Shown piece after piece: positions 1,885 through 59,952 of a stretch of DNA of 64,000 bases (positions within the stretch are counted from its first letter, which is position 1; every line of letters begins with the position of its first letter). This stretch comes from Fibrisoma montanum. Lineage in GTDB: Bacteria; Bacteroidota; Bacteroidia; Cytophagales; Spirosomataceae. The notes beneath the pieces are model-generated. The model was not told the DNA's origin, made no database searches, and saw only the letters and a program-made list of their open reading frames with translations. A program made the position numbers and the translations under genes. Where the stretch lies: NCBI RefSeq assembly GCF_003583365.1, contig NZ_QXED01000005.1:248001-312000 (forward strand), written 5' to 3'.

Positions 1885-4491
1885 CTATTCGGTGCGCAGG
1901 CTTTTTACCGGATTCATCAGGGCGGCTTTGATGCTCTGGAAGCTGACCGTCAGCAAGGCAATACCTACCGCCAACAGCCCGGCCAGGCCAAAGACCCACC
2001 ACTCGATGTCAATCTTGTAGGCGAAGTTCTGCAACCACTGATGCATGGTGTACCAGGCTATCGGCACCGCAATCACAATGGCGATAATCACCAGTCGAAT
2101 AAAGTCTTTTGCCAGCAACTGAATAATCTCTGCTATACTAGCCCCCAGTATTTTACGTACGCCAATCTCACGCGTACGAACCTGCGCCGTGAACGTTGCC
2201 AGCCCAAACAGACCCAGGCAGGAGATCAGAATGGCTATGGAAGCAAACAGATTGAAGAGCGTACCGGTACGTTGTTCTACCCGGTAGAGATTGTCGAACA
2301 GCTTGTCGAGGAAAAAGTATTCGAACGGGTAATTCGCATTGTACTGTTTCCACGAGCGTTCGGTGGCGGCAAGTACCGGTTCGGCCTCATTGCCCGTCGT
2401 TTTAACGTAAATCGCATTGAGTCGGTCGGGGGCGTAGTAGAAAACGGCCGGTTCGATTTTCTGCCGCATGGAGGCAAAGTGGAAATCCTTTACTACACCA
2501 ACGATGGTTCCGTCGCGGTCCCACAGTTTAAACCGCTTACCGACCGGATTTTGAATACGGGCAGCCTTCACGGCGGCTTCGTTCAGGATAAAGCGGGTCG
2601 AATCAGCTACGGCACCCGTGAAGTTGGCCCCCTGTTGCAGCTTCATCCTGAAGAAAGGCACAAAGTCTTTGTCAATGGCCACCGGATACACAAACATTGT
2701 CTCTCCCTGTTCCTTACCATCCCATTGTGTATCACCGGTCTGTTCGCCCAGTTGAACGATATTGGCACTGGCCCGGGTGACTCCTGCCACACCGGGCTGG
2801 TTCAGGAGGTCTGCTTTCACGGCCTCGTAATGCTTCCCCATGTCGCGCATGAAAAAGGCAAACACGTGCGTTTTGTCGTACCCTAATTCCTTCGAGCGAA
2901 TGTATTGCAGTTGCTTGCCGATGATGAACGTACCGGCTATCAGAATCACCGAAACGGCAAACTGCGTAACGACCAGAACTTTCCGGAACGCTACGTCGCT
3001 CAAACGGGCGGAAATCTTTCCCCGCAATGCTTTCAGCGGTTCAAACGACGACAGCAGCAGAGCCGGGTAAATGCTCGAAGCCGCCAGTGTCCCAAGGATA
3101 GTTAGCCCCATAACCTGCCAGAGCTGGCTATCCAGCAGATTAAGAACCAGTTCTTTACCCGAAATCTGGTTGTAGACCGGCAACAGCAGGTAAATCAGAC
3201 CAAGCGCCAGCAGGGTAGCCAGCGAGAAAAGGAGTGCCGTCTCGACCAGAAACTGCATGAAGAGCTGACTGCGGGCTGCGCCTACAATTTTGCGCATGCT
3301 GACTTCTTTGGAGCGAAGCATAGCCCGGGCCGTTGAAAGATTGACGTAGTTAATGCAGGCAATCGTCAGAATAAGCAGGGCAATAATGCCGAACATCCGG
3401 ACCGTCTCGATACCGCCGTTCGTGCCATCGGCCCGGTACAAGTGCATGTCGGGCAACGGCTGCAACAGGTAGCTGAGGTCGGTGTCGTCGGGTTTATGAC
3501 TGAGGTGAATGGCCCGCAGTTTCTCGGCTACGCTACTGATGGAAGCGCCCGGTTGTAGGAGCAGGTACGTATTGTAGTTGAACTGACTGAAGTCGTTGGC
3601 CAGCGTTTTATCGTCGTCCCGGTTCGTATAGCGATCCTTGAACATGAGCGATATTGGGAGCAGTATATCAGCCCTGATACTCGAGTTTTTTGGAAAGTCG
3701 CGGACCACACCACTCACCTTGAATGAGGTTTTATCATCGACCGACAGGGTTTTACCCAGTGGGTTTTCATCGCCGAAATACCGTTTGGCCGTCGTTTCGG
3801 TTAGCACAACGGAAGAGTTGTCGGGGAAAGGGGCAGCAGGGTTACCCTGAATCAGCTGGAAATCAAAGACCGGAAAGAGCGATGGATCGGTGAAGAACGT
3901 ATTGTCTTCCTTGAAGAGCTTATCCTTGTATCGAAATAACGTATAAGATCCATTATATGAAATACGAACGGCATCGTTCACTTCGGGTACTTGCTTCTTG
4001 GCGTAATCGGCAATGGGGGCAACGGTTACGGTCCAGATTTGCCGACTGCTGCCGGTGCCTGCCCAGTTCTCCAGGCGGTAAATGGAGTCGGCTTGCCGGT
4101 GAAACCGGTCAAAACTCAGTTCACTCTGCACCCATAGCAGAATAAGTAGACCAACGGCCAACCCGACGGTCAGGCCAGTCATGTTGATCAGCGAGTAGAA
4201 CTGATTTTTGGTCAGATTGCGCCAGGCTGTTTTGATATAGTTGCGAATCATGTCAGTAAACAGGGGTTTAGCGTATTCGGATGGTCTGCGTTTGATAAAT
4301 TGAGGCCGCAGGTAAGCCAGCACCTCGCGCCAGTACGTCTGTCTGGCCCGGCGCTCGCCGAGTCGCTGCATCCGCAGGGCGAAGCGTTCGTGGATGTCGC
4401 CCAGCACTTCCTCGCGCAGGTGCGGAGCCACCAGCCAGTTGAGCAGCTTGTCGGGCCAGTTGGGGGGCGGAGGTGGTTGGTTCGGGTTCAT
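1885..4491 (-). CDS. FtsX/MacB-type permease with prefix domain, run A gene 3
   Basis: About 868 residues from the ATG at 4491. An in-frame ATG at 4530 would add 13 residues (MTKLSPSPPAPQT), but that extension lies inside the GC-rich intergenic hairpin, so I prefer 4491. Order: prefix domain (about 1-75), TM1 (about 100-120), first periplasmic domain, FtsX motif INYVNLSTARA near 382, TM block to about 490, TM5 near 502-522 (QFAVSVILIAGTF), second periplasmic domain, and a C-terminal TM block from about 752 ending NPVKSLRTE. The first cytoplasmic motif reads KEVSMRKIVGA where most paralogues have KEVGIRK, so this half is more diverged. The prefix is almost identical to that of the next gene upstream although the cores differ strongly. 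Probably the membrane component of an ABC efflux or mechanotransmission system. No ATPase is nearby. Confidence 0.93.
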   Translation of the reverse strand: MNPNQPPPPPNWPDKLLNWLVAPHLREEVLGDIHERFALRMQRLGERRARQTYWREVLAYLRPQFIKRRPSEYAKPLFTDMIRNYIKTAWRNLTKNQFYSLINMTGLTVGLAVGLLILLWVQSELSFDRFHRQADSIYRLENWAGTGSSRQIWTVTVAPIADYAKKQVPEVNDAVRISYNGSYTLFRYKDKLFKEDNTFFTDPSLFPVFDFQLIQGNPAAPFPDNSSVVLTETTAKRYFGDENPLGKTLSVDDKTSFKVSGVVRDFPKNSSIRADILLPISLMFKDRYTNRDDDKTLANDFSQFNYNTYLLLQPGASISSVAEKLRAIHLSHKPDDTDLSYLLQPLPDMHLYRADGTNGGIETVRMFGIIALLILTIACINYVNLSTARAMLRSKEVSMRKIVGAARSQLFMQFLVETALLFSLATLLALGLIYLLLPVYNQISGKELVLNLLDSQLWQVMGLTILGTLAASSIYPALLLSSFEPLKALRGKISARLSDVAFRKVLVVTQFAVSVILIAGTFIIGKQLQYIRSKELGYDKTHVFAFFMRDMGKHYEAVKADLLNQPGVAGVTRASANIVQLGEQTGDTQWDGKEQGETMFVYPVAIDKDFVPFFRMKLQQGANFTGAVADSTRFILNEAAVKAARIQNPVGKRFKLWDRDGTIVGVVKDFHFASMRQKIEPAVFYYAPDRLNAIYVKTTGNEAEPVLAATERSWKQYNANYPFEYFFLDKLFDNLYRVEQRTGTLFNLFASIAILISCLGLFGLATFTAQVRTREIGVRKILGASIAEIIQLLAKDFIRLVIIAIVIAVPIAWYTMHQWLQNFAYKIDIEWWVFGLAGLLAVGIALLTVSFQSIKAALMNPVKSLRTE

Positions 4492-4496
4492 GGTTT

Positions 4497-4549
4497 GTGG
4501 GGCTGGGGGCGAAGGGCTGAGCTTGGTCACCCCAAGCCCCCGGCCCCAC
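4497..4549. repeat. GC-rich intergenic inverted repeat (copy 1)
   Basis: Fourteen-base arms at 4497-4510 and 4536-4549 pair with one G.T wobble around a 25-nt loop. The loop carries TGGGGTGAC on the coding strand. It sits between the stop of one permease and the start of the next. The copy at 7192-7244 is essentially identical. Confidence 0.85.
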
Positions 4550-4561
4550 GCCCTTAGCCAA

Positions 4562-7186
4562 TTACTCGGACCGTAAACTTTTAACCGGATTCACCAGGGC
4601 CGCTTTGATGGCCTGATAGCTGACTGTGAGTAACGTAATGAGTAGTGCTCCGCCACCAGCCACGGCGAATATCCACCAACTGATGTCGGTGCGGTACGTG
4701 TACTTCTGGAGCCAGTTGTTGAGAAAGTACCAGGCTATTGGAGTGGCTATCACGAAAGCAACAATAACCAACAGCACGAAGTCTTTCGAAAGCAGTCGCC
4801 ACAGATTAAACACCGATGCGCCCAACACTTTGCGCACCCCAATCTCTTTGGTGCGCTGTTCGGCCACGAACGAAGCTAGTCCGAAAAGACCCAGGCAGGA
4901 GATAAAGATGGCCAGTGCGGCAAAGATGCCTGCCAGGGTGCCAATCCTCTCTTCAGCCTCAAACTTTTCAGCGTATTCCTGATCGACAAAATCGTAATCA
5001 AAAGGAACTGATGGAATCACTTTCTTGAAGACCGACTCAATCTTGGGTAAGGCATCGGAGGCTGCTACGTTCGGCTTGATTTTGATATTAATCCAGTTAA
5101 GTGGTCCTCTGAGGAAGAATATGGTCGGGTGTACCGGCTCAAATGGCGAGGTCATTACCATGTCTTTAATGACGCCCACAATCCGGAATGGTTGACCGTC
5201 GCGACGGATAATTTCGCCAACTGGCTTCTGTAAGCCCATGAACTTGACGGCTGCTTCGTTAACCACAAAACCCGCCGAATCGGAGGCAAAGTCCCGCGAG
5301 AAGTCCCGCCCGGCAACGAACTGCCAACCTACGGTTTTGCCATATTCAGGCGAAACGGTTAGGGTGCCGAAGTCAGCTTGTAGAGAAGGATCTTTACCGG
5401 TCCACTCAAAACCCCCATTATTTGACCATAACTCTGTGGCACGGCTGGCCGATTGCGCCGTTTCGAAAACAACACCGGTGTTCTTCAGTTCCTGGCGTAG
5501 CACGTCGAATTTGGTGTAGAAATCATCGGCTGCCATTCGAACCTGCAACAACCCTTCACGATTGTAGCCTACAGGGCGATTCTTAGCATACTGAATCTGG
5601 CGATAGACGATGATGGTACCAATGATGAGCGTAACGGATACGGCAAACTGAACTACGACTAAAACTTTGCGGGGAATAGCCGCTAGCCGCCCCACTCGAA
5701 AGGTACCTTTCAGGACTTTGATGGGCTGGAAGCCGGACAGATACAAGGCCGGATAGCTGCCTGCTAATAAACCTGTGATTAGAATGAAGCATAGGCTAAA
5801 CAACCAGAAGTAAGGATTCTCCCAAAGGATCGTCATCTGTTTGTCAGCCAGTTGATTAAACCAGTTGATGGTCAAGGCGACTAAGCCAATGGCTACCCCA
5901 AAAGCCAGAATAACGACGAGGAACGACTCGCTGAAGAACTGCCCGATCAACTGCCTCCGCACCGACCCAACGGCCTTGCGGATGCCGACTTCCTTGGCGC
6001 GTTTGTCGGAGCGGGCAGTGCTCAGGTTCATGAAGTTGATGCAGGCCAGCAGTAACACAAACGCCCCGATGATGCTAAACAGCCAGACATACTGGATGAA
6101 GCCGCCGTTGTTGTTTCCTTGCTTATCGAAATCCGAATACAGATGCCACTTGCTCATCGGGTGTAGGAAAATCTGGAAGTTGAAGGCGAGCTGCTCCTTA
6201 TTATCCCCGAGGTTCTTGTGCTTGATATCCTTGATCTTAGCCGATAGTTTATCCACATCCACATTCGGCTGAAGCTCAGCGTATGTTTGAATAAAGTTAT
6301 TGAACCAACTTTGTTCTTTTATCCACGTATTCGCCGATACGTACAGATTCCAGGGAGCAAAAAACTTAACCTGATGAAACTCGGTATTGTGAGGTAGATC
6401 TTGGTAAACACCGGTGACTTTAGCATCCATTGCGTTGTTGATCTTCACTACTTTCCCCATCGGATCAGCGTCGCCGAAGAGCGCTTTTGCCGCCGATGCG
6501 GAGAGCAAAATTGAGTTTAGCTCCTGAAGCCCCGCCCGCGTACCCTTCAGCATGTCGAGCGTCAGCATATCTGGTGCTTCGGACTCGATGAACTCGCCGG
6601 TTATCGAAAGCTTATTATCTCCCACTGCCAGAATGTGATCCTGTATTCGCCAGGCCTTCAGAACGCGCTTGAAATCGTTAGGATATTTGGTTTTCAACTC
6701 GGTGCCCAGTGGGTAAGGCAATGAGCTTCCCGTCCAGGTTTCGCCATTAACAGTTCCATGTTGGGCTACTTGCACAATCCGATCGTAGTTCTCGTGGTAC
6801 CTATCAAACGAGAGTTCATCCCATACCCAAAGGCCAATCGAGATAGCGACGGCCATACCCACAGCAAGCCCCGAAATGTTGATGAACGAGTATCCTTTAT
6901 TTTTGGCGAGGTGGCGCCAGGCAGTTTTGATATAGTTGCGTAGCATGTCAGTAATCAAAGGGTTAGGATACGCTTGGGGTTTACGTTTTATAAATCGGGG
7001 TCGCACATAGGCCAGCACCTCGCGCCAGTACGTTCTTCGGGCCTTGCGTTCGCCCAACCGCTGCACCCGTAAGGCATAGCGCTCGTGGATGTCGCCCAGC
7101 ACTTCCTCGCGCAGGTGCGGAGCCACCAGCCAGTTGAGCAGGCGGTCGGGCCAGTTGGGGGGCGGAGGTGGTTGGTTCGGGTTCAT
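4562..7186 (-). CDS. FtsX/MacB-type permease with prefix domain, run A gene 2
   Basis: About 874 residues from the ATG at 7186. The in-frame ATG at 7225 adds the same 13 residues as in the neighbouring gene and falls in the hairpin element, so it is disfavoured. Prefix domain about 1-75, core from MLRNYIKTAWRHL, TM1 near 103-122, FtsX motif NFMNLSTARS near 385 with KEVGIRKAVGS, TM5 near 505-526 (QFAVSVTLIIGTI), and a periplasmic domain with YGKTVGWQFVAGRDFSR. The C-terminal block starts near 759 (FISCLGLFGLASF, KEIGVRKVLGAS) and ends NPVKSLRSE. Both FtsX halves look intact. Its core resembles run D permeases more than its immediate neighbours (same YGKTVGWQ and GYNREGL-type segments). Membrane subunit of unknown specificity. 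Confidence 0.93.
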   Translation of the reverse strand: MNPNQPPPPPNWPDRLLNWLVAPHLREEVLGDIHERYALRVQRLGERKARRTYWREVLAYVRPRFIKRKPQAYPNPLITDMLRNYIKTAWRHLAKNKGYSFINISGLAVGMAVAISIGLWVWDELSFDRYHENYDRIVQVAQHGTVNGETWTGSSLPYPLGTELKTKYPNDFKRVLKAWRIQDHILAVGDNKLSITGEFIESEAPDMLTLDMLKGTRAGLQELNSILLSASAAKALFGDADPMGKVVKINNAMDAKVTGVYQDLPHNTEFHQVKFFAPWNLYVSANTWIKEQSWFNNFIQTYAELQPNVDVDKLSAKIKDIKHKNLGDNKEQLAFNFQIFLHPMSKWHLYSDFDKQGNNNGGFIQYVWLFSIIGAFVLLLACINFMNLSTARSDKRAKEVGIRKAVGSVRRQLIGQFFSESFLVVILAFGVAIGLVALTINWFNQLADKQMTILWENPYFWLFSLCFILITGLLAGSYPALYLSGFQPIKVLKGTFRVGRLAAIPRKVLVVVQFAVSVTLIIGTIIVYRQIQYAKNRPVGYNREGLLQVRMAADDFYTKFDVLRQELKNTGVVFETAQSASRATELWSNNGGFEWTGKDPSLQADFGTLTVSPEYGKTVGWQFVAGRDFSRDFASDSAGFVVNEAAVKFMGLQKPVGEIIRRDGQPFRIVGVIKDMVMTSPFEPVHPTIFFLRGPLNWINIKIKPNVAASDALPKIESVFKKVIPSVPFDYDFVDQEYAEKFEAEERIGTLAGIFAALAIFISCLGLFGLASFVAEQRTKEIGVRKVLGASVFNLWRLLSKDFVLLVIVAFVIATPIAWYFLNNWLQKYTYRTDISWWIFAVAGGGALLITLLTVSYQAIKAALVNPVKSLRSE

Positions 7187-7191
7187 GGTTT

Positions 7192-7244
7192 GTGGGGCTG
7201 GGGGCGAAGGGCTGAGCTTGGTCACCCCAAGCCCCCGGCCCCAC
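7192..7244. repeat. GC-rich intergenic inverted repeat (copy 2)
   Basis: Arms at 7192-7205 and 7231-7244 are the same 14-base arms as copy 1, with the same 25-nt loop. It is part of a longer near-identical block shared by the two junctions. Confidence 0.85.
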
Positions 7245-7256
7245 GCCCTGAGCCAA

Positions 7257-9953
7257 TTACTCGGACCGTAAACTTTTGACCGGATTCACCAGGGCCGCTT
7301 TTATCGCCTGATAACTGACGGTCAGCAGAGCGATGGCGATGGCTGAAAGTCCCGCCACGGCAAATACCCACCACTCCACATCAATGTGATAAGCAAACTC
7401 TTGTAGCCATTGATGGGTAGCCCACCAGGCCAGCGGGAAAGCAATGCCATTGGCGATCAAAACCAGTCTTAGAAAGTCTTTAGAAAGTAAGGCGGTAAGA
7501 TTGAGGATGCTTGCGCCTAATACCTTACGGACGCCAATTTCCTTGATGCGTTGTTCGGCGGCATAGGTGGCCAACCCGAATAACCCCAGACAGGCAATGA
7601 AAATCGTAGCCAACGCTACCCAGATCAGCAGGGTTTCCCGGCGCTGGTCTTCGACGTAAAAGCGGGCCAGTTGATCATCCAGAAAGTGATATTCCAACTG
7701 GTGCGTAGGATCAATACTAGTCAAAACGTCGTTCATTTTGGCCAAGGTCGCCGGAATATCCTTGCCTTCAATTCGGGCTGTATAATAATCGATCGGATAG
7801 ACCGGATTATTCTGGTAAGCCAACACCAGCGGGGCAATCTTTTCGCGTAAGGATTGGAAATGAAAATCCTTTACAATACCGACGACCCTTGCGTTAAAAG
7901 GCTGATTAGCCTCGTTAAGTGGGCTATAGCTCCCGCCCATTGCTCGGGTGGGTATCTCAACTTGCTGCGCCGAGGCTTCCCGGATACCGAGTAGTTTGGC
8001 GGCCGTTTCGTTGAGGATGACGGATGTCGAATCGCTCATTCCGCCAAAATTTCGGCCGTTCAGCAACTGTACTTCAAAGGTCTTGGCGAAGTTCTCGTCG
8101 GCTCCAATCAGATAAGCGATTTTGTGTTCGTCGGTATTTCCCTCGGGCCTGATTTTGACCGTAGAAATTGTTTTCCACTCGCCCGGTACTCGCGAGGTCG
8201 CCGACACGTTTTTGACGGTTGGAATCCGGCTAAATTCGGTTTTGATCGTTTCGGCACTACTCCGTACTTTACCACTGTTAATGTCGATCACCAGCAACAA
8301 ATCTTTGTTAAAGCCCAGATTCTTATTGTTGGCAAACCGAACTTGCTGGAACAGCACGATGGTGGCGATCATCATGACGACCGAAATCGTAAACTGAAAC
8401 ACGACTAATCCTTTTCGCAATGACAGATCGCCTTTATTTTGCAGTTTAAGATTCTTCAGCAACAACAGGGGACTAAAACGTGACAGTAAAAAGGCGGGAT
8501 AACTACCCGATAATAAACCTGTGATAACCAGGGCGACGAAGGTGTAAATCCAAATTCGATAATCACTATAAAAGCCTAACGAGAGCTCTTTATGAGTGAA
8601 TTCATTAAAGGCAGGAAGCAGTAGATTGACCAATACCACGGCCAGCAGAAAAGAAATAGCCGTTACGACCAGCGATTCGGTCAGGAACTGATGTATGAGA
8701 TGACTCTGAAACGCGCCACTGGCTTTGCGAACACCAATTTCCTTCGACCGGTTGGAAGCCCGTGCCGTGGCGAGGTTCATGTAATTGATGCAGGCAATGA
8801 GTAAGACAAACAAGGCAACAACCGCAAAGATTTTGATGTAAAGCAAAACTCCCTGGCTCATCGCTTCTACGTTACCGTTTCTGGCGCCATCCTCAATGTT
8901 TTCGGAGTGCAGATGCATGTCAGCGAGAGGTTGCAGTGAATACCTCACCGAATGCCCGGCCTCCCGTTTCAGATTGATATTGAGTAGGTTGTTGATTTTA
9001 TTAGCTGCGACTTCCGGATTGGCCTGTTGCTTCAATAGGAAAAACGTCAGGAAATTTTGGTCATCCCAATTAGTTATCCATTCGGCAAAGTCGTCGCTGT
9101 TGGCGATGGTTGCTTCCGAAATCATCGAATTGAAGGTAAAACTTGAATTGCGGGGGTGATTTTTCAGAACCGCCGTTATCTTGAGCGGTTTATCGGGCAT
9201 GAATTCAACGATGACGGTTTTGCCGACAACCTGGGTGGTGTTGAAAAGCCGCTGCGCCAACTCCTCGACGATAATAATGGAATTTGGCTCGTTCAAACCT
9301 GATTTACTGTCCCCATCAATAGCTTCAAAGTCAAAAACTTCCAACAATCCTGAGGAGCCAAAGGCGATTGTCTCCTGAAACGTATTTTTGTTGTCGGGGT
9401 TTGATAGGTTCGCCCTTCCGACTCGGTTAATGCGAGCCGAGTTTTCGATCTCTCCAATGCGTTTCTTGGATTCTTCGGCCACTTTGTAGCTCGATGCCGC
9501 AATGGTCAGATCGTCATTCGGTGTCTTTCTATGCTGAACAGCCCGGTAAATTCTGCTCGTTTTGCTGTGTTGCTGATCAAACGTCAGTTCATCGAAGAGG
9601 TATAATCCGATCAGCAAAAAACAGGTAACGCCAAAAGTCAAACCGGCTACGTTAAGCCCGGTGTACAGTTTATTCCGGCTCAGGGTTCGGAAGGCAATCT
9701 TGAAGTGGTTGCGCAGCATGTCCATATTCGTTGGGTTCGGATAGTTAACAGGTTGTCGTTTCATGAATCCAGGTCGCACGTACGCCAGCACCTCGCGCCA
9801 GTACGTGGCCCGCGCCTTACGCTCGCCAAGTCGCTGTACACGTAGCAGGTAGCGTTCGTGGATGTCGCCCAGCACCTCCTCGCGCAGGTGCGGAGCCACC
9901 AGTCTGCTGAGCAGCTTGTCGGGCCAGCGGGGACGTTTCGTAGCGTTTGGCAT
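7257..9953 (-). CDS. FtsX/MacB-type permease with prefix domain, run A gene 1
   Basis: Predicted 898 residues, first permease after padR1. It starts MPNATKRPRWPDKLL, so its first residues resemble the run B starts (MPNATRPPRW) while the rest of the prefix is of the run A type (PHLREEVLGDIHERY). TM1 is near 112-132. The FtsX motif INYMNLATARAS with KEIGVRKASGA is near 384, TM5 near 516-537 (FTISVVMMIATIV), and the C-terminal block starts near 784 (FIACLGLFGLATYAAEQ). The periplasmic portions differ from its neighbours and the gene looks somewhat AT-richer. The start follows an intergenic hairpin (9954-10014). Both halves of the family architecture are present. Substrate unknown. Confidence 0.93.
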   Translation of the reverse strand: MPNATKRPRWPDKLLSRLVAPHLREEVLGDIHERYLLRVQRLGERKARATYWREVLAYVRPGFMKRQPVNYPNPTNMDMLRNHFKIAFRTLSRNKLYTGLNVAGLTFGVTCFLLIGLYLFDELTFDQQHSKTSRIYRAVQHRKTPNDDLTIAASSYKVAEESKKRIGEIENSARINRVGRANLSNPDNKNTFQETIAFGSSGLLEVFDFEAIDGDSKSGLNEPNSIIIVEELAQRLFNTTQVVGKTVIVEFMPDKPLKITAVLKNHPRNSSFTFNSMISEATIANSDDFAEWITNWDDQNFLTFFLLKQQANPEVAANKINNLLNINLKREAGHSVRYSLQPLADMHLHSENIEDGARNGNVEAMSQGVLLYIKIFAVVALFVLLIACINYMNLATARASNRSKEIGVRKASGAFQSHLIHQFLTESLVVTAISFLLAVVLVNLLLPAFNEFTHKELSLGFYSDYRIWIYTFVALVITGLLSGSYPAFLLSRFSPLLLLKNLKLQNKGDLSLRKGLVVFQFTISVVMMIATIVLFQQVRFANNKNLGFNKDLLLVIDINSGKVRSSAETIKTEFSRIPTVKNVSATSRVPGEWKTISTVKIRPEGNTDEHKIAYLIGADENFAKTFEVQLLNGRNFGGMSDSTSVILNETAAKLLGIREASAQQVEIPTRAMGGSYSPLNEANQPFNARVVGIVKDFHFQSLREKIAPLVLAYQNNPVYPIDYYTARIEGKDIPATLAKMNDVLTSIDPTHQLEYHFLDDQLARFYVEDQRRETLLIWVALATIFIACLGLFGLATYAAEQRIKEIGVRKVLGASILNLTALLSKDFLRLVLIANGIAFPLAWWATHQWLQEFAYHIDVEWWVFAVAGLSAIAIALLTVSYQAIKAALVNPVKSLRSE

Positions 9954-10021: not shown

Positions 10022-10357
10022 TTAACTCCACTTCAGTATGGTTTGCGGCACAATGCGTTCCCAGAGTCGGTTGCGGACCGAACGGACATCGTTCAGAACG
10101 CGGCCGCCCAGGGCCGTGACGGTGAACAGCCGTTTGCGTCGGCCCCCGCGTTCGGGCGTAGCCTCGCCCAGTTCGGAGCGGAGGTAGCCCTTCTGTTCAA
10201 GTCGTTGCAGAGCCGCATGAACCGCCCCGGTGCTGACGGTCTGGCCGGTCTCCCGTTCGAGTTCTTCGGCAATAACCACCGAATACGCTTTGGGAGAAAG
10301 CACGGCTACGGCTAGCAGAACGACCTCTTCAAATTCGCCTAAATCACTCCGTCGCAT
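10022..10357 (-). CDS. PadR-family transcriptional regulator (padR1), head of run A
   Basis: 111 residues from ATG 10357. The PadR-type winged helix is recognisable: LGEFEEVVLLAVA at the start, a recognition-helix region GAVHAALQRLEQKGYLRSE, and the wing ERGGRRKRLFTVT. There is no long C-terminal dimerisation domain, so it belongs to the short PadR class usually found beside permease-prefix transporters. It is followed after 68 bp by the first run A permease and probably shares its transcript. A sigma54-like element lies 53 bp upstream of the start and a tripartite TGTCC/GGACA site lies further upstream. Likely role: local repressor of the operon, possibly controlled by contact with the prefix domains of its permeases. 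That last point is inference. Confidence 0.92.
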   Translation of the reverse strand: MRRSDLGEFEEVVLLAVAVLSPKAYSVVIAEELERETGQTVSTGAVHAALQRLEQKGYLRSELGEATPERGGRRKRLFTVTALGGRVLNDVRSVRNRLWERIVPQTILKWS

Positions 10358-10410
10358 GGGCAGAAAACAGCGGTTGGTTTGGGTTATCGGATATTATCTA
10401 TTTCTGTATG

Positions 10411-10425
10411 TCAAATGCCTTGCCA
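10411..10425 (-). promoter_or_regulatory. Sigma54-like -24/-12 promoter of padR1
   Basis: The minus strand reads TGGCAAGGCATTTGA. GG and TTG have exactly the spacing of the sigma54 consensus (TGGCACG-N4-TTGC), but the usual C of the -12 GC pair is A. The same element, TGGCA-N3-CATTTG(A/T), precedes padR2 and padR3 at equivalent places. Confidence 0.68.
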
Positions 10426-10436
10426 AAAAGAAAAAA

Positions 10437-10460
10437 GGCCCTTTCCAACGCAGAAAGGGC
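10437..10460. terminator. Bidirectional terminator-like hairpin between enhancer and padR1 promoter
   Basis: GCCCTTTC (10438-10445) and GAAAGGGC (10453-10460) form a perfect stem with a 7-nt loop. It has TTTT on the right and an A-rich tract on the left, so either strand would give a U-tract. It lies in the spacer between the tripartite site and the -24/-12 element and may insulate padR1 from the divergent AraC gene. Confidence 0.6.
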
Positions 10461-10487
10461 TTTTGTACTTTGTGAGTGCTATAGGAT

Positions 10488-10524
10488 TGTCCAGAAACGG
10501 ACAGACTTTGTACGAGCGCGGACA
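10488..10524. promoter_or_regulatory. Tripartite TGTCC/GGACA site upstream of padR1 (putative enhancer)
   Basis: TGTCC at 10488-10492, N6, GGACA at 10499-10503, N16, GGACA at 10520-10524. The inverted pair plus a third direct half-site recurs with identical spacing at 21782-21818 and 59916-59952. Its inner edge is 62 bp from the sigma54-like element, a position typical for NtrC-class activator sites. It is also within 120 bp of the divergent AraC gene and could serve both. Confidence 0.7.
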
Positions 10525-10637
10525 AGCCGGTAAACAAACCTGAAAACGATCATCAACTGGCCAGTTTCTGCCGGCTGGCGGATGTTTGGGGGATAGTAGT
10601 GAAGCGTGTAACTTTAGATCGGCAGACACGAGAGCTG

Positions 10638-13032: not shown

Positions 13033-15684
13033 TTATTCAGTACGTAACGACTTGATCGGGTTCGACAGAGCCGCCCGGATGCTCTGGAAGCTGACCGTCA
13101 GCAGGGCGATCGCGATGGCCATAACAGCAGCAACGACAAACGTCCAGGCACTGATGTCGATGCGGTACGGGTAGTTCTGCAACCACGCGTCAATCGCATA
13201 CCAGGCGGCCGGGAAGGCGAACACAAACGAAAAGCCCACCAGCTTCAGAAAATCCGACGAAAGCAGTTGCACCAGGCTCGAAACCGATGCACCCAGTACC
13301 TTACGGATACCAATCTCCTTCGTACGCCGTTCGGCCGAGAGGGTGGCCAGCCCGAACAGACCAATACACGAAATAAAGATGGTCAGGATAGCCCCGAACA
13401 GCATAATCTGCTTCCATTTGGCCTCGGCTTCGTATTTGCTGCGGTTCGATTCGTCCAGGAACGTATACGAGTACGGCATAATGGGAAACAGACGTTTGAA
13501 GGTCTTTTCCAGATGACGGAGACTGGCCGTTTCGGTTCCGGGCTTGATCTTTACAAAGAACTTGCCGTACGGATTCGTCGGCTTCATCGTGAACAGTTGC
13601 GGGCCAATTTCTTCGCTCAGCGAGGCATAATGATGGTCTTTCACTACGCCCACGACCCGGTACTTTTCATTTTCGTTGTACCAGAAATCAACCACCTGCC
13701 CGATTGGATTCTTCCAGCCGGCTTTTTTAACGAACGTTTCGTTCACCAGCACCGCCTGTGTAGAGTCTGTTCGCAGGTCTGCTGAGAAATTACGCCCCTG
13801 CACAATCGGGATTTTGAACAAGGGAAGGAAATTAGGATCAATGGTTTCGTACGCGAAGTTTTGCTGCGTTTCTCCGTTTATCTTGGCAATCGTACCCCAG
13901 CGACCACCGTTTTTGGGCGTAACACCAACGATGTTGGGGTTTTTGAGCAACTCGTCACGTAGCAGTTTCAGCTCATTTCGATTTAACCTTGATTTTTCAA
14001 CGTCAATCACGTGCCGGTCGTCGTAGCCCAGGTCCTTGTTGGTTAGGTACTCGAATTGTGAGTATATCGTCAGCGTACCGATAATCAGGAACGACGCGAT
14101 AGCAAACTGAAGCACAACCAGCGATTTCTGAAGGTAGTTTCGGCCCGACAGTTTGAACCGGCTGTACAGCGTTTGCACGGGGTCGTAACTCGACAGGACC
14201 AGCGCCGGATAAAAGCCCGCCAGCAGGCCAGTGGCGAGAAATAGGCCAATGTAGCCCGCCACCAGTTTGACGTCGAACAGGTACGACAGCGCCAGGGCTT
14301 TGTTGGCAAGCTGATTGAAGGTCGGTAGTACCAGCAGCACTAGTAGCACGGCGAAGACAAACGCAGCGAAGCACAGCAGGAACGACTCACCCAGAAACTG
14401 AAACGTCAGTTGCGAACGGCCACCACCCACGACTTTCCGGATGCCGATTTCCTTGGCCCGTTTCAACGACCGCGCTACGGTCAGGTTCACGAAGTTGATG
14501 CAGGCAATGATGAGAATGAACAGCGCAATACCCGTCAGGATGTAGGAGTACATGGGGTTACTGCGATCAACCAGCCCATTATCAGGGGGCAGGTCTTTGT
14601 TGAGGTGCATGTCCGTAAACGGCTGAAGCATATACTCCATTCGGTTCTTCATGCCGAATTGCTGAGCCATCGTTTTGATCGCGTCGCGGGCATCGGCCAC
14701 ATAAATCCGATTCATCTGCTTCTCAACTTTGCCCAGATTGGCATTCGGGTTGAGCAGCACGAACGTATTGAGGAAAAAATTGAACCAGTTGTTATTATCG
14801 GCCATTGCCTCCTGCGGAACAATAAGCTGCTTCAGGATGTCAAACTTAATCGACGAGTTCTGGGGGCATTTGGCCGAAACGCCGGTTATGATATAGGGGC
14901 TGAACTGGCTATTGTCCTCGTAATCTGAGTCTTTGAGATAAATTATCTTGCCCAGTACATCGGTGGTGCCAAATTCCCGCTGCGCTACGTCCTCCGAAAC
15001 GACAACCGAATTGGGGGCCTTGAGTGCCGTTTTCGGGTTGCCGCTCAACAAGGGAAAGCTGAACACCGAGAAAATGTTGGAATCGGCTTCAAACACCGGC
15101 TGGCTCGTTACCTCGTTCCCACGTTTCATGTCGAGCCGTTGCTCCCGGTACCGAACAAACGACAGAATCTCCGGGACGCCGGCCATGAACCTGGGCCCCT
15201 GAAAGTAGCCGGTGTTCGTTCCCACGCGCTCCTGTACGCCGGCGGGGTTAAACTCCCGGTTCGTTATCCGATAAATGTGCGGGTTGTTGGCGTGGAAACG
15301 GTCATAGCTGACTTCATCTTTGGTGTACAGCATAATGAGCATGGCCGCGGCCAAACCAATGCTGAGACCAACGACGTTGATGAGCGAATACACCTTGTTG
15401 TGGGCGAGGGTTCGCCAGGCGATGGTGAAATAATTACGTAGCATATCAGGACTCAGTAAAAAAGGAGGAGGATATTCTCTTGCTTGTTTTGATTTGGCCA
15501 GCGGCCGTAACAGTTTTAGGACATTCAGACAATAGCGCCAGTCGGCCCGCCGTTTGCCCACCGTCATGACCCAGTAGTGGTACAATTCCAGCAGGTCACC
15601 CTGCACGTCTTCGCGGGTGTCGGGGTGGCTCCACCAGGAGAGAAGCCTGGTGGCCCAGCGCGGTGGTCGGGTGGCGTTTGGCAT
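13033..15684 (-). CDS. FtsX/MacB-type permease with prefix domain, run B gene 3
   Basis: Predicted 883 residues, starting MPNATRPPRWATRLL. The prefix is of the run B type (HPDTREDVQGDLLELYHYW, about 18-36, then KRRADWRYCLNVLKLLRPL). The core starts at MLRNYFTIAWRTL, with TM1 near 108-128. The FtsX motif NFVNLTVARSLKRAKEIGIRK is near 391 with GGGRSQL in place of GSxRxQL. TM5 is near 518-540 (QFAIASFLIIGTL). The second periplasmic domain carries VVGVVKDHHYASL. The C-terminal block starts near 766 (FISCIGLFGLATLSAERR) and ends NPIKSLRTE. It is last in the run and terminates at the shared hairpin. Membrane component of a predicted ABC-type system with no partner in the window. Confidence 0.93.
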   Translation of the reverse strand: MPNATRPPRWATRLLSWWSHPDTREDVQGDLLELYHYWVMTVGKRRADWRYCLNVLKLLRPLAKSKQAREYPPPFLLSPDMLRNYFTIAWRTLAHNKVYSLINVVGLSIGLAAAMLIMLYTKDEVSYDRFHANNPHIYRITNREFNPAGVQERVGTNTGYFQGPRFMAGVPEILSFVRYREQRLDMKRGNEVTSQPVFEADSNIFSVFSFPLLSGNPKTALKAPNSVVVSEDVAQREFGTTDVLGKIIYLKDSDYEDNSQFSPYIITGVSAKCPQNSSIKFDILKQLIVPQEAMADNNNWFNFFLNTFVLLNPNANLGKVEKQMNRIYVADARDAIKTMAQQFGMKNRMEYMLQPFTDMHLNKDLPPDNGLVDRSNPMYSYILTGIALFILIIACINFVNLTVARSLKRAKEIGIRKVVGGGRSQLTFQFLGESFLLCFAAFVFAVLLVLLVLPTFNQLANKALALSYLFDVKLVAGYIGLFLATGLLAGFYPALVLSSYDPVQTLYSRFKLSGRNYLQKSLVVLQFAIASFLIIGTLTIYSQFEYLTNKDLGYDDRHVIDVEKSRLNRNELKLLRDELLKNPNIVGVTPKNGGRWGTIAKINGETQQNFAYETIDPNFLPLFKIPIVQGRNFSADLRTDSTQAVLVNETFVKKAGWKNPIGQVVDFWYNENEKYRVVGVVKDHHYASLSEEIGPQLFTMKPTNPYGKFFVKIKPGTETASLRHLEKTFKRLFPIMPYSYTFLDESNRSKYEAEAKWKQIMLFGAILTIFISCIGLFGLATLSAERRTKEIGIRKVLGASVSSLVQLLSSDFLKLVGFSFVFAFPAAWYAIDAWLQNYPYRIDISAWTFVVAAVMAIAIALLTVSFQSIRAALSNPIKSLRTE

Positions 15685-15696
15685 AGGGTTGTGGGG

Positions 15697-15774
15697 GAAG
15701 GGCAGGGGGCGTGGGGCTTAGGGCTTGGGGCAGGGGCTAGGTAGTTACCCCATGCCCCCGGCCCCTTGCCCTTC
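15697..15774. repeat. GC-rich intergenic inverted repeat (copy 4)
   Basis: Arms 15697-15710 (GAAGGGCAGGGGGC) and 15761-15774 (GCCCCTTGCCCTTC) form a 14-bp stem with one wobble around a long G-rich loop containing GTTACCCCA. It fills the gap between two run B permeases. Confidence 0.8.
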
Positions 15775-15778
15775 GCTA

Positions 15779-18466
15779 TTATTCAGAACGTAAGGACTTG
15801 ACTGGGTTCATCAGGGCGGCTTTGATGCTCTGGAAGCTGACCGTCAGCAGGGCAATACCAATGGCTGCTATGCCCGCCAGGGCGAACATCCACCACGACA
15901 GGTCAATCTTGTAAGCGAAATCCTGCAGCCAGCGACTCATGCCATACCACGCAATGGGCGTGGCAATGAGCAGGGCCAGCACAACGGGCTTCAAAAAGTC
16001 TTTTGACAGTAGCCCAACGATGCTGGCGACGGATGCCCCCAGAACTTTCCGAACCCCGATTTCTTTAGTGCGCCGTTGCGCCGTGAAGGTGGCCAGACCA
16101 AACAAACCCAGGCAGGCGATGAAGATCGTCAACCCGGCAAAAATGGTAAACAATTGACCAATGCGCTGCTCCGACTGGTACATGGTATTGAAGCGGTCGT
16201 TCAGGAATGAATAGGCAAACGGGTTGTCCGTCTGGGTTTTCCAGATTCGTTCGATCTGCCCAAGCAGAGCCGCCATGTCGCGGGTATGAATGCGGAGAGC
16301 CATCTGATAGGAATCGGCCCCGTAAATCATTACCAAAGGGGCAATCGGCTGGTGCATCGATGCAAAATGGAAGTCCTTAACGACCCCTACCACAGTATAG
16401 GTACGTTTGCTTTCGGGGCTTCCGTTGCCCACTGCCGTGAGCCGTTGCCCAATCGGATTCTTTCCGCGGGATGCGGTCCAGCCAAACTGACGGGCGGCTG
16501 CTTCGTTGATTAAGACAGCGGAACTGTCGGACGGAAACGCTTTTGAGAAGTTACGGCCAAGTGCCAGGCGAATTCCCAGGGTAGGCAGGTAGCTTTCGTC
16601 GATGTAGTACGCCTGATTGCGGTAGGTGACCGATTCGCCCTTGCTGTTTGTCGACTGAAATCCATCGGTGCCCGTGTTGGACGCCCCGGCGGGCAGGTAT
16701 CCCGCCAGCGTAACTGCACGTACCTGCGATAGCCTGGTTAATTCGGCTTTGAGCGCGTTGACTTTGTTGTCAAGTGCGTACGTATCGTGGATGATCAGGA
16801 CCTGGTCTTTATCGTAACCTACCTTTTTACTCTGGATAAAGTCTAATTGCTGATACACGGTCAGGGTACTGATAATCATGCCAATCGAAACCACAAACTG
16901 AACCGTCACCAGCGTATTACGTAGCTGACCACTCCGGGCGCCACTCTGTAGCGCCAGAGCCGAACCGTTGCCTTTTAACACAGTGATCGGTCTGAACGCG
17001 GACAGGAAAAAGGCCGGATAGCTACCCGCGAGTAATCCGACCAGCAAACAGCCGAATCCAATGCCCGGCAGCATCCAGCCGCTGGTGAGGGTGCTCAGGT
17101 CGAACTGCTTACCCGCCAGTTGATTAAAACCGGGTAATACGGCCAGCACAATACCTAATCCAATCAGTAAAGCCATGAACGTAATCAGCACGGACTCACT
17201 CAGAAACTGACCAATCAGTTGCTGTTGCTGCGATCCGAGCGCCTTGCGAATGCCGACTTCTTTGGCACGACCCGCTGATCCGGCCGTCGACAGGTTCATA
17301 AAGTTGATGCAGGCAATCAGCAGGATAAAAGCCGCAATGGCCGAGAAAATGTACACGTATTTGATGTCGCCATTAGGCTCAATCTCCCCTTCCAGGTCGG
17401 AGTGAAGGTGAATGTCGGTAACCGGCTGGAACTGAAATCCGAAGCGGTCTCCTTTCCTGGAAAACTCGGCCAGACTTATGCCTAACAACTGCTGCAGCTC
17501 GGGACCAATGTACCTCTGCACCAGATCAGGCATCTGCGCTTTCAGCGTCTCAATCGAATAACCGGGACGTAGGGTCAGATACGTCAGGGCACCGCTCGAC
17601 AGCCACGTATTTCGTAAGTCGATGGAGCTGAGCGATCCGAATATGTTGTAGTGAAAGTGGGTGTTCGACGGTATATCCTGACACACACCCGTTACCCGAA
17701 AGAGTGCCCGCGAACCTAGCGTCAAGGTTTGGCCGATGGGATTCTGGGCTCCAAAATACTTGCGGGCAATGGTCTCCGTAATAACGATGGTATTAGGTTC
17801 TCTTAAGACAGTGCGTTTGTCACCCTGCAGCAGGGGAATGGAGAAGAATTGGAAAAAGTTGGAATCGGGGAAAACAACGTGTTCTTCCTTGAACCGCGCT
17901 GACCCGCGTTTGACAATAAACGTTCCTTCCTGATACAACCGGACGGCTGCTTCGACACCCGGATAGTCGTGTACCAACGCCGGACCAGCCGGAACGCCTA
18001 CAGGAGCTGTACGAAGCTCTTTACCGCCTATCTGACCGTTCATGGTCATGCGGAACATGCGGTCGGCGTTAGCGTAATAACGGTCGTAACTCAACTCGTG
18101 CGTAACAAACAGCATAATTAACAGGCAGGTCGCCAGGCCAACGGCCAATCCGACAATGTTGATCGTCGCGAAGGCTTTTTTACGCCACAGATTTCTCAGG
18201 GCAATTTTGATATAGTTCCGTATCATATCGGGACTTAAAAAAAAGGGTTGCGCGTATTCGGTCGACTGTTTCTGTTTGGCCAGCGGCCGTAGTAACCTCA
18301 GTGCGTTCAGACAATAGCGCCAGTCGGCCCGCCGTTTGCCCACCGTCCTGACCCAGTAGTGATACAGTTCCAGCAGGTCGCCCTGTACGTCTTCGCGGGT
18401 GTCGGGGTGGCTCCACCAGGAGAGAAGCCTGGTGGCCCAGCGCGGTGGTCGGGTGGCGTTTGGCAT
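15779..18466 (-). CDS. FtsX/MacB-type permease with prefix domain, run B gene 2
   Basis: Predicted 895 residues, starting MPNATRPPRWATRLL as in the following gene. Run B prefix (HPDTREDVQGDLLELYHYW), core from MIRNYIKIALRNLW, TM1 near 110-130. The first periplasmic domain carries DVVVFPDSNFF-like and IPSNTHFHY segments. The FtsX motif NFMNLSTAGSAGRAKEVGIRK is near 385 with GSQQQQLIGQFLSES, TM5 near 517-538 (QFVVSIGMIISTL), and the C-terminal block from about 779 (FIACLGLFGLATFTAQRR) ending NPVKSLRSE. Its start codon region and the junction behind it are nearly identical to those of the neighbouring genes, while the periplasmic domains differ. This suggests homogenised ends and diversified sensing or cargo domains. 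Substrate unknown. Confidence 0.93.
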   Translation of the reverse strand: MPNATRPPRWATRLLSWWSHPDTREDVQGDLLELYHYWVRTVGKRRADWRYCLNALRLLRPLAKQKQSTEYAQPFFLSPDMIRNYIKIALRNLWRKKAFATINIVGLAVGLATCLLIMLFVTHELSYDRYYANADRMFRMTMNGQIGGKELRTAPVGVPAGPALVHDYPGVEAAVRLYQEGTFIVKRGSARFKEEHVVFPDSNFFQFFSIPLLQGDKRTVLREPNTIVITETIARKYFGAQNPIGQTLTLGSRALFRVTGVCQDIPSNTHFHYNIFGSLSSIDLRNTWLSSGALTYLTLRPGYSIETLKAQMPDLVQRYIGPELQQLLGISLAEFSRKGDRFGFQFQPVTDIHLHSDLEGEIEPNGDIKYVYIFSAIAAFILLIACINFMNLSTAGSAGRAKEVGIRKALGSQQQQLIGQFLSESVLITFMALLIGLGIVLAVLPGFNQLAGKQFDLSTLTSGWMLPGIGFGCLLVGLLAGSYPAFFLSAFRPITVLKGNGSALALQSGARSGQLRNTLVTVQFVVSIGMIISTLTVYQQLDFIQSKKVGYDKDQVLIIHDTYALDNKVNALKAELTRLSQVRAVTLAGYLPAGASNTGTDGFQSTNSKGESVTYRNQAYYIDESYLPTLGIRLALGRNFSKAFPSDSSAVLINEAAARQFGWTASRGKNPIGQRLTAVGNGSPESKRTYTVVGVVKDFHFASMHQPIAPLVMIYGADSYQMALRIHTRDMAALLGQIERIWKTQTDNPFAYSFLNDRFNTMYQSEQRIGQLFTIFAGLTIFIACLGLFGLATFTAQRRTKEIGVRKVLGASVASIVGLLSKDFLKPVVLALLIATPIAWYGMSRWLQDFAYKIDLSWWMFALAGIAAIGIALLTVSFQSIKAALMNPVKSLRSE

Positions 18467-18479
18467 AGGGTTGTGGGGT

Positions 18480-18555
18480 AAGGGCAGGGGGCGTGGGGCT
18501 TAGGGCTTGGGGCAGGGGCTAGGCAGTTACCCCATGCCCCCGGCCCCTTGCCCTT
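18480..18555. repeat. GC-rich intergenic inverted repeat (copy 5)
   Basis: Arms 18480-18492 and 18543-18555 pair over 13 bases with one wobble. The loop has GTTACCCCA. It is nearly identical to copy 4. Confidence 0.8.
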
Positions 18556-18560
18556 CGCTA

Positions 18561-21333: not shown

Positions 21334-21672
21334 TTATCCAGTAATCAGTTGGAGGGTTTGCGGAGGCAGTGAACGCCACAACTCCTCGCGGACTTGTTTG
21401 ACGTCCCGTAACGCTTTTCGTCCGGCGGCCGTGACCGTAAAAAACCGTTTCCGCCGACCACCGCGCTCGGCTGTGGCCCCACCCATGCGCGAAGCCAGAA
21501 AGCCTTTCTCCTCCAGACGTTGGAGGGTCGTATGGACCGTACTGAAGCCGACAGACCGGCCGGTTTTCTGCTCGATTTCCTGCGTGACGGTTACGCCATA
21601 GGCTTCTTCGTCGAGGATGGCGACGGTCAGCATGACTACTTCTTCAAACTCTCCCAGAAAGGCTCGTTTCAT
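21334..21672 (-). CDS. PadR-family transcriptional regulator (padR2), head of run B
   Basis: 112 residues from ATG 21672 (MKRAFLGEFEEVV). The frame stays open upstream to 21819, but that 49-residue extension would run through the sigma54-like element and into the tripartite site, and it is absent from the other two PadR proteins. The internal start is therefore chosen. The winged-helix features match padR1 and padR3: LGEFEEVVMLTVAILDEEAYG, STVHTTLQRLEEKGFLASRMGG, ERGGRRKRFFTVT. The permease gene starts 82 bp downstream, after GC-rich repeat 6. Probable local regulator of run B. Effector unknown. Confidence 0.9.
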   Translation of the reverse strand: MKRAFLGEFEEVVMLTVAILDEEAYGVTVTQEIEQKTGRSVGFSTVHTTLQRLEEKGFLASRMGGATAERGGRRKRFFTVTAAGRKALRDVKQVREELWRSLPPQTLQLITG

Positions 21673-21701
21673 GGCTTCGGCATTTTCTCCGATAATGCCG
21701 A

Positions 21702-21716
21702 ACAAATGCGGTGCCA
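21702..21716 (-). promoter_or_regulatory. Sigma54-like -24/-12 promoter of padR2
   Basis: The minus strand reads TGGCACCGCATTTGT, with -24/-12 spacing identical to the elements before padR1 and padR3. It is 29 bp from the chosen padR2 start. The -12 element is TTGT rather than TTGC. Confidence 0.68.
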
Positions 21717-21781: not shown

Positions 21782-21818
21782 TGTCCGCTTTTGGACACTG
21801 ACCGTACCGAAACGGACA
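21782..21818. promoter_or_regulatory. Tripartite TGTCC/GGACA site upstream of padR2 (putative enhancer)
   Basis: TGTCC 21782-21786, N6, GGACA 21793-21797, N16, GGACA 21814-21818. Spacing is identical to the other two copies although the intervening bases differ. The gap to the -24/-12 element is 65 bp. Confidence 0.7.
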
Positions 21819-24318: not shown

Positions 24319-24340
24319 AGTTGTATGGGTATGAGTATGA

Positions 24341-24404
24341 GGCTTGGGGCAAAGGGCGTGGGGCTGGGGGTGGGTTTGTTACCCCACGCCCTTTGCCCCA
24401 AGCC
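24341..24404. repeat. GC-rich intergenic inverted repeat (copy 7), perfect 23-bp stem
   Basis: Arms 24341-24363 and 24382-24404 are perfectly complementary over 23 bases around an 18-nt loop containing TTGTTA. It occupies most of the 91-bp gap between two run C permeases. It is the strongest uninterrupted stem I found. Confidence 0.92.
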
Positions 24405-24409
24405 CAGGG

Positions 24410-26764: not shown

Positions 26765-26780
26765 AGTTGTAGGGGCTTGG

Positions 26781-26857
26781 AGCAAAGGGCGTGGGGCAAG
26801 GGGCTGGGGGTGGGGGTGGGTTTGTTACCCCACGCCCATTGCCCCCAGCCCTTTGCT
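26781..26857. repeat. GC-rich intergenic inverted repeat (copy 8), 31-bp imperfect stem
   Basis: Arms 26781-26811 and 26827-26857 match at 26 of 31 positions with a 15-nt loop. The right arm reaches into the stop codon of the upstream permease (26856). The loop-proximal core is GTTACCCCA. Confidence 0.85.
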
Positions 26858-29213: not shown

Positions 29214-29230
29214 AGTTGTAGGGGCGTGGG

Positions 29231-48916: not shown

Positions 48917-48918
48917 CG

Positions 48919-51579: not shown

Positions 51580-51583
51580 ACGA

Positions 51584-54217: not shown

Positions 54218-54219
54218 CG

Positions 54220-56850: not shown

Positions 56851-56854
56851 AGAC

Positions 56855-59485: not shown

Positions 59486-59808
59486 GACCAGGCGGTTTTT
59501 GGGATGGCCTCCCACATCTGGCTCCGCAACTCCCGTACTTCTTCAAGGGCTCGCCGACCCGCATTGGTGACCGTATAGAGCCGCTTCCGTCGACCACCCC
59601 GTTCGGCTGATATGCCGCCCATCTCCGACCGGACCAGCCCTTTTTCCTGAAGGCGGTTCAATGCCGAATGCACCGCGCCCAGGTTGACCGACCGGTTCAT
59701 CTGCTGCTCAATCTCGTTGACAACGGCGGCTCCGTACGCATCGCCCGCCCGGATCGCCACAGCCAGCAACACTACCTCCTCGAACTCGCCTAAGTAAGTT
59801 CCCTTCAT
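59482..59808 (-). CDS. PadR-family transcriptional regulator (padR3), head of run D
   Basis: 108 residues: MKGTYLGEFEEVVLLAVAI, GAVHSALNRLQEKGLVRSEMGG, ERGGRRKRLYTVT, a complete PadR winged helix with a short tail. The stop overlaps the permease start (ATGA). A sigma54-like element lies 28 bp upstream and the tripartite site beyond it. Compared with padR1 and padR2 the recognition-helix region differs at several positions (SALNRLQEKG against AALQRLEQKG), so the three may read different operators. Likely regulates run D. Confidence 0.93.
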   Translation of the reverse strand: MKGTYLGEFEEVVLLAVAIRAGDAYGAAVVNEIEQQMNRSVNLGAVHSALNRLQEKGLVRSEMGGISAERGGRRKRLYTVTNAGRRALEEVRELRSQMWEAIPKTAWS

Positions 59809-59836
59809 GCCCGAATATTAGTTGTGTAAATGTATA

Positions 59837-59851
59837 ACAAATGGCCTGCCA
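59837..59851 (-). promoter_or_regulatory. Sigma54-like -24/-12 promoter of padR3
   Basis: The minus strand reads TGGCAGGCCATTTGT, with the same spacing as before padR1 and padR2 and TTGT in place of TTGC at -12. Confidence 0.68.
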
Positions 59852-59860
59852 GATTAACGA

Positions 59861-59890
59861 AAAGGCCATTCCAGTGCTGGAATGGCCTTT
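59861..59890. terminator. Perfect hairpin between the padR3 enhancer-like site and promoter
   Basis: Arms 59861-59874 and 59877-59890 (AAAGGCCATTCCAG and its complement) are perfect over 14 bases with almost no loop. It lies 83 bp beyond the clpP stop and probably ends clpP transcripts, but it sits exactly in the enhancer-promoter spacer. Confidence 0.65.
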
Positions 59891-59915
59891 CTGCCAATGA
59901 GTTTATGCAGGCACC

Positions 59916-59952
59916 TGTCCAGAAACGGACACTGTTTGTACGCTGGTGGACA
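59916..59952. promoter_or_regulatory. Tripartite TGTCC/GGACA site upstream of padR3 (putative enhancer)
   Basis: TGTCC 59916-59920, N6 (AGAAAC, the same as at padR1), GGACA 59927-59931, N16, GGACA 59948-59952. The gap to the -24/-12 element is 64 bp. It lies between the clpP stop and padR3, so only padR3 is a plausible target. Confidence 0.72.

Follow-up and report, generated by a model that had tools for sequence, protein, structure and literature searches.

Among the closest described relatives of the arrangement analysed here are several sigma54 systems. At glmY, QseF/GlrR operates with a sigma54 promoter and an NtrC-family enhancer site, TGTCN10GACA, as described in the accessible part of PMC8745638. 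In Flavobacterium psychrophilum, the sigma54 regulon corresponds to motif SM4, of which one promoter was checked by mutagenesis, and groES is among its sigma54 promoters (accessible text of PMC9723704). A 2025 in silico study claims, in its accessible text, the first evidence that sigma54 controls FtsX-like permeases, Bacteroidia included (PMC12316311). The 64-kb window of the present study (the term denotes the whole stretch of DNA analysed) carries three padR-permease operons, each preceded by the same composite control unit (Table 1).

A composite control unit upstream of three padR-permease operons

The unit occupies the minus strand in all its parts and precedes the padR starts at 10357, 21672 and 59808. 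Read in the padR direction, two palindromes spaced 21 bp apart, or two helical turns, stand upstream of the -24/-12 pair and are followed by a gap of 62-65 bp and by TGGCA-N3-CATTTG (3/3 padR genes). This common order had been claimed in the initial annotation of the window and is borne out at each position: the pattern TGTCC-N6-GGACA-N{50,80}-TGGCA-N6-TTG has three matches in the window against none in 100 dinucleotide shuffles, and a check of the upstream sequences agrees with the gaps (62, 65 and 64 bp) and motif-to-start distances given there. The palindrome consensus spans 16 bp, TGT(C/A)C-N6-GGACA, with one CGTAC half-site in operon 2. The distal and proximal sites had been described as a single tripartite element; its half-sites are there, but, with a fourth one present (TGTAC at 10509 and 59937, CGTAC at 21803), we prefer to read it as a pair of 16-bp palindromes.

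Chance is excluded for this unit because of its pairing and spacing, the palindrome by itself being weaker evidence. With up to one mismatch, the palindrome alone is matched seven times in the window against 2.0 expected. Its perfect form stands at nine places in the whole genome against five for a reversed control, and was rejected as a genome-wide marker on that count. Six of these nine perfect palindromes stand before a padR; for the other three (L001-L003) no clear target is seen, and that of L002 lies inside a reading frame. The unit as a whole is confirmed, far beyond chance.

The three operons encode 11 permeases, all of which pass the NF038404 model (permease prefix domain 2, cut-off 35) with 85.5-101.8 bits. 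The same proteins score 281.7-315 bits against TIGR03434 (ADOP) and do not reach its cut-off of 622.3, nor do the three PadRs (29.1, 37.9 and 42.2 bits) reach the cut-off of TIGR03433 (padR_acidobact, 101.8).

Table 1. Features of the three padR-permease operons and their control units in the window; transcription start positions and operator blocks are inferred.
Feature	Position	Strand	Remarks
Operon 1, distal predicted enhancer palindrome	10509..10524	-	TGTCCGCGCTCGTACA on the minus strand; 1 mismatch to TGTCC-N6-GGACA
Operon 1, proximal predicted enhancer palindrome	10488..10503	-	perfect
Operon 1, terminator-like hairpin between enhancer and promoter	10438..10460	-	
Operon 1, -24/-12 element	10412..10425	-	TGGCAAGGCATTTG; predicted start near 10399
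Operon 1, putative PadR operator block	10391..10411	-	
padR 1	10022..10357	-	PF03551, 34.6 bits (cut-off 27)
Operon 1, three permeases	1885..9953 (7257-9953, 4562-7225, 1885-4530)	-	NF038404 above cut-off, 3/3
Operon 2, distal degenerate predicted enhancer palindrome	21803..21818	-	TGTCCGTTTCGGTACG; 2 mismatches
Operon 2, proximal predicted enhancer palindrome	21782..21797	-	perfect
Operon 2, -24/-12 element	21703..21716	-	TGGCACCGCATTTG; predicted start near 21690
Operon 2, putative PadR operator block	21682..21702	-	
padR 2	21334..21672	-	PF03551, 43 bits (cut-off 27)
Operon 2, three permeases	13033..21251 (18561-21251, 15779-18466, 13033-15684)	-	NF038404 above cut-off, 3/3
Operon 3, distal predicted enhancer palindrome	59937..59952	-	TGTCCACCAGCGTACA; 1 mismatch
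Operon 3, proximal predicted enhancer palindrome	59916..59931	-	perfect
Operon 3, perfect inverted repeat between enhancer and promoter	59861..59890	-	by eye
Operon 3, -24/-12 element	59838..59851	-	TGGCAGGCCATTTG; predicted start near 59825
Operon 3, putative PadR operator block	59817..59837	-	
padR 3	59482..59808	-	PF03551, 46 bits (cut-off 27)
Operon 3, five permeases	46289..59515 (56855-59515, 54220-56850, 51584-54217, 48919-51579, 46289-49036)	-	NF038404 above cut-off, 5/5

Distribution of the unit in the genome and its relatives

The genome (7.79 Mb, 39 contigs) yields 14 PadR hits, and the unit precedes eight of its ten short LGEFEE-type PadR genes; seven of these eight units carry the exact TGGCA-N6-TTG and one (L011) has TGGCC. 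The two short genes without the unit (L010 and L013) show TACATACAT instead. PadRs of the MKGTNLGEFEE type (L010, L013 and others such as L232, L236 and L239) have, by eye, no sigma54 unit and one or two TTTTACATACATTTAC-like blocks, which probably serve as PadR operators on a vegetative promoter.

Across 198 related genomes, the strict composite is found in 33, at 80 places (reversed control, 0/198), and 68 of the 80 have the start of a PadR frame no more than 300 bp downstream. Among the 12 composites without such a frame, inspection by eye finds two that begin permease-like (L125, L136) and two that resemble padR remnants (L101, L119).

A further set was anchored on PadR genes picked by protein similarity alone: 30 genomes gave 139 matches in 20, of which 127 are distinct genes with usable upstream sequence, the rest being mostly the weakest and including four of the nine from genome G166. 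Here the exact TGGCA-N6-TTG precedes 77/127 genes (shuffles 0.4; reversed 1; other strand 1); 101/127 have a palindrome with two mismatches or fewer (shuffles 6.6; reversed 15), and 86/127 have both elements at a gap of 55-80 bp (shuffles 0; reversed 0; other strand 2). In 27/127 genes, the MKGTNLGEFEE type among them, the exact pair is missing and so is any palindrome with one mismatch or none. In G166, all five PadRs examined lack the unit, though this genome has rpoN and an orthologue of the regulator discussed below. The conservation of the paired motifs upstream of related padR genes, on which the initial annotation had made its proposal depend, is found, and it comes with a quantised spacing.

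Spacing between palindromes and promoter

Spacing was analysed for 81 PadRs, own genome included, whose exact pair is no more than 125 bp from the start. The distances between palindrome and promoter fall into groups of 52-54, 62-66, 73-76 and 83-87 bp, each a helical turn from the next, with one exception at 141 bp. The phasing gives a Rayleigh value of 0.86 at a period of 10.7 bp (116 sites; at most 0.29 in 500 uniform draws), part of this signal arising because tandem sites stand 21 bp apart. When the proximal site is taken alone, gaps fall at 52-54 bp (31 genes) and 62-66 bp (45), with one at 74 bp and no site in four genes. Both main gap classes are present in all six multi-member PadR subgroups, and the pattern is therefore not one inherited distance. 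The palindromes are enhancer-like, standing upstream at looping distance, paired and helically phased with the promoter, and their binding is predicted. Helically phased gaps of this kind are the mark that a looping enhancer would leave, as looping requires.

The gaps also share contents. In both spacing classes, TGGCA has an A-tract 38-40 bp and a T-tract 8-11 bp above it, at unchanged places; the two tracts lie ∼30 bp apart, with examples from the window in the gaps 10426-10487 and 59852-59915. In 25/77 gaps the tracts make up a terminator-like stem of at least 7 with TTTT (2, 2 and 1 in three shuffles). In operon 3, the inverted repeat sits downstream of a clpP-like gene (59973-60743), and gap hairpins may end upstream transcripts, for example after this gene, leaving looping free.

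Fit of the promoter to sigma54

The match of the -24/-12 pair to the sigma54 consensus, treated as established in the initial annotation, stands in part. The GG-N10-G register (GG at -24, G at -13) is present at the three window sites and in 77/127 PadR-anchored genes, but the consensus C at -12 (TTGC) occurs in 6 of 81 padR promoters, where the base is otherwise T (46), A (28) or G (1). TGGCA-N6-TTG is also found in 8 of 18 groES upstream regions and lacking in the other ten; the next base is G (4), T (2) or A (2), and C in 0/8. The groES upstream region of the present genome contains TGGCACAGAAGTTGGC. With C absent also at the groES sites, its rarity is therefore a trait common to other likely sigma54 promoters of the group. 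The missing -12 C remains a departure from the sigma54 consensus. By eye, several of the groES regions (L331-L348) have TGTCAG/CTGACA-like repeats above a TGGCAC-type element, which point to a second enhancer site of another kind.

The genome has one rpoN (a single PF04552 hit); rpoN presence was discarded as a discriminating test, being found in 197/198 relatives. A sigma70-type scan of positions 10300-10650 finds no promoter, such a scan saying little for this phylum. At the level of sequence, the comparative test (composites in 33/198 relatives, pairs before 77/127 PadR-anchored genes, phased gaps) supports the sigma54 reading that had been put forward.

Reach beyond close relatives

A scan of a species collection gave at least 118 stretches, of which 80 listed loci were analysed. 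Among the matches listed (80 loci), 52 of 83 precede a PadR, and the hosts are mostly Spirosoma and Larkinella but also, among others, Runella, Fibrella, Dyadobacter, Rhodocytophaga and Flavobacterium sp. SUN052. By our arithmetic, chance could account for ∼15 of the matches listed, and the ones in Planctomycetota, FCPU426, Firmicutes, Neptunicoccus, Zixiibacteriota, Goldbacteria and Pedobacter appear to be of this kind. In Porphyromonas gulae and in Tannerella, Bacteroides and Kapaibacterium bins, the unit stands before HlyD-, ABC-, permease- and other export-like frames (by eye). We infer that a sigma54 switch of export operons is the older arrangement in Bacteroidota and that the padR-permease operons would have acquired it later.

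A relaxed pattern, run over 395 genomes of the class, finds 41 places in 13 of them (reversed control, 0). In the 27 loci read from these 41 places, the unit precedes, besides PadR, HlyD-like, ABC-ATPase-like and permease-like frames, many with TGGCACG (by eye), and one HlyD-like frame is confirmed as PF13437. In two genomes (G031 and G138), the palindromes lie between an HlyD-like gene and the gene of an NtrC-type response regulator.

A candidate activator

The activator is most likely the NtrC-type response regulator encoded at 549.6-551.0 kb of C36, a contig other than that of the window. Its receiver (PF00072), sigma54-interaction AAA+ (PF00158) and Fis HTH (PF02954) domains all score above cut-off, and its sigma54-contact loop reads GAFTDA where GAFTGA is standard. 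Within the genome, this replacement in the sigma54-contact loop is seen in two activators, L025 and L027.

A survey of this regulator covered 51 genomes chosen by us from the 135 with an orthologue, the truncated locus L289, where no palindrome is present, being left out. In 33/51 genomes, the 700 bp upstream of the regulator gene contain a palindrome with one mismatch or none, and in 18 of these it is perfect (shuffles 0.6 and 0.0). In the 40 genomes covered by a divergent-gene test, a divergent HlyD-like frame accompanies 31/33 palindrome-positive regions versus 1/7 negative ones. TGGCA-N6-TTG faces the HlyD side in 21/33 positive regions (gaps of 54-55, 65, 73, 75-77 and 85 bp) and the regulator in 6/33 (53 and 74 bp); these gaps show the same phasing as the padR units. 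The regulator orthologue is present in all 33 unit-bearing genomes versus 102/165 others (Fisher p 8e-7, kinship ignored).

The whole ∼3.4-kb regulator loci contain no palindrome in the present genome or in the ten others whose regulator is most similar, and in these eleven, which are among the 18 negatives, the gene seems detached from the palindrome. Because the palindrome link is absent there, the assignment of the activator in the own genome rests on orthology. The palindrome was rejected as a general property of activator genes, being found in 0/11 activator loci of this genome. The window itself encodes an activator of the REC-GAF-AAA+ type (35562-38108), convergent with a TPR/HisKA_2 kinase (38150-40591); non-prefix permeases (21910-31703) are close by.

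Proposed mechanism and alternative readings

Given the sequence conservation, the spacing rule and the activator's genomic context in other genomes, we consider it probable that each padR-permease operon has a sigma54-type promoter with an upstream enhancer of its own, served by the C36 regulator and subject to PadR repression; binding, looping, sigma54 dependence and PadR repression are the predicted steps. Two dimers of the NtrC-type response regulator would bind the tandem palindromes, and a DNA loop would bring the AAA+ activator to RNA polymerase-sigma54 parked at TGGCA-N6-TTG, with transcription starting ∼12 nt downstream of TTG. The gap would be held to ∼53, 64 or 74 bp because contact needs the correct helix face. 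Each operon's PadR would probably repress by binding the 21-bp block after -12. With the C36 regulator as the likely common activator, the PadR operons would therefore form one regulon.

The block after -12 may be a PadR operator that varies with PadR type, or else, less probably, a start-region feature needed by the promoter itself. Near-invariant positions in all subgroups (A at +3 in 80/81, AA at +7/+8 in 74 and 81, T at +9 in 76) fit a promoter feature, as does the 6-bp spacer of the -24/-12 pair, which also follows PadR type weakly (56% identity within versus 51% between PadR subgroups; Spearman 0.15), the trend thus not being unique to the block. However, the 21-bp block following TTG shows 70% identity within subgroups and 54% across them, and its similarity follows PadR protein identity (Spearman 0.22; permutations at most 0.13), whereas the 40 bp before TGGCA give 38% and 37%. 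The palindrome gives 77% and 75%; the block tracks the PadR subgroup and the palindrome hardly does, so that the operons share their switch and differ more in the block. Class-like blocks in two copies before four PadR genes (L162, L163, L198 and L207, by eye) also speak for an operator. In 35 PadRs without the -24/-12 pair, the nearest class block matches at 15.1/21, against 13.3 for the farthest and 12.7 for shuffles, which favours the operator but is only suggestive.

Two further alternatives concern the switch. The same promoter and enhancer could be served by another activator, either the window's REC-GAF-AAA+ protein, which is encoded among the padR operons, or the C37 paralogue L025, which also has the GAFTDA motif and adjoins a permease-like frame (by eye). 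We consider this unlikely: the window protein was set aside as cognate activator, with full-length orthologues in just 10/33 unit-bearing genomes and none in G070 (8 units) or G081 (6 units), and no palindrome stands in the 3.5-kb locus of either gene, which is equally true of the C36 gene in the own genome. Also unlikely, in our judgement, is a promoter independent of sigma54, in which TTTG would act as the -33 element of vegetative promoters in Bacteroidetes and an ordinary activator, or PadR itself, would bind the palindromes. The rarity of C at -12 is in keeping with this, as is a conserved AAT ∼17-20 nt beyond TTTG, a distance that we take to resemble vegetative promoter spacing. Yet TGGCA and TTG form a strict pair whose distances from the palindromes follow the helical phase, these palindromes also face TGGCAC-type elements upstream of HlyD-like genes, and some PadRs have no palindromes; the -33/-7 reading was rejected, TAnnTTTG being absent in register (by eye).

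The sigma54 switch with the C36 regulator and PadR repression would supply a candidate regulator and expression condition for the prefix-domain permeases of Bacteroidota, and it gives a sigma54 regulon of the phylum both a candidate activator and a putative site for it to bind. The dozens of natural spacing variants make the helical phasing of a bacterial enhancer visible in evolution. In its broadest form, a two-component system and sigma54 would arm the padR-permease family through phased enhancers, with a private PadR lock over the start of each operon, a picture to which we give an even chance. If it holds, paralogues could spread by duplication, with the common switch kept and the lock alone changed, which suggests a route for carrying one regulatory unit across a large paralogous family.

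Comparison with known systems

A literature search of titles and abstract openings, with most subscription journals outside its reach, found among the papers listed neither sigma54 control of PadR-permease operons nor the enhancer, probable activator, phasing rule or PadR lock. The initial annotation had called the arrangement new. Sigma54 before COG0577 permeases has already been published in silico (accessible text of PMC12316311), but the PadR-gated form was not found in the literature, and the claim narrows to that form. As in the COG0577 permeases of that study, sigma54-type promoters here precede MacB/FtsX-type permeases; its accessible text gives no PadR, enhancer site or activator, with ‘padr’ and ‘upstream activat’ occurring 0 times in the main text. 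The F. psychrophilum SM4 regulon likewise shows -24/-12 promoters in Bacteroidota, groES included, and differs in having other targets, with 0 occurrences of PadR in its accessible text (PMC9723704).

The padR_acidobact/ADOP pairs (TIGR03433 and TIGR03434) share with the present operons a padR beside duplicated permeases; unlike them, the proteins described here score far below both cut-offs, and the 11 permeases pass NF038404 instead. Like QseF/GlrR at glmY, as far as PMC8745638 is accessible, the unit combines upstream palindromic response-regulator sites, with similar half-sites, and a -24/-12 promoter. Unlike that system, it has TGTC-N8-GACA rather than N10, precedes many paralogous operons, carries a base other than C at -12 and places a putative PadR operator at the start.
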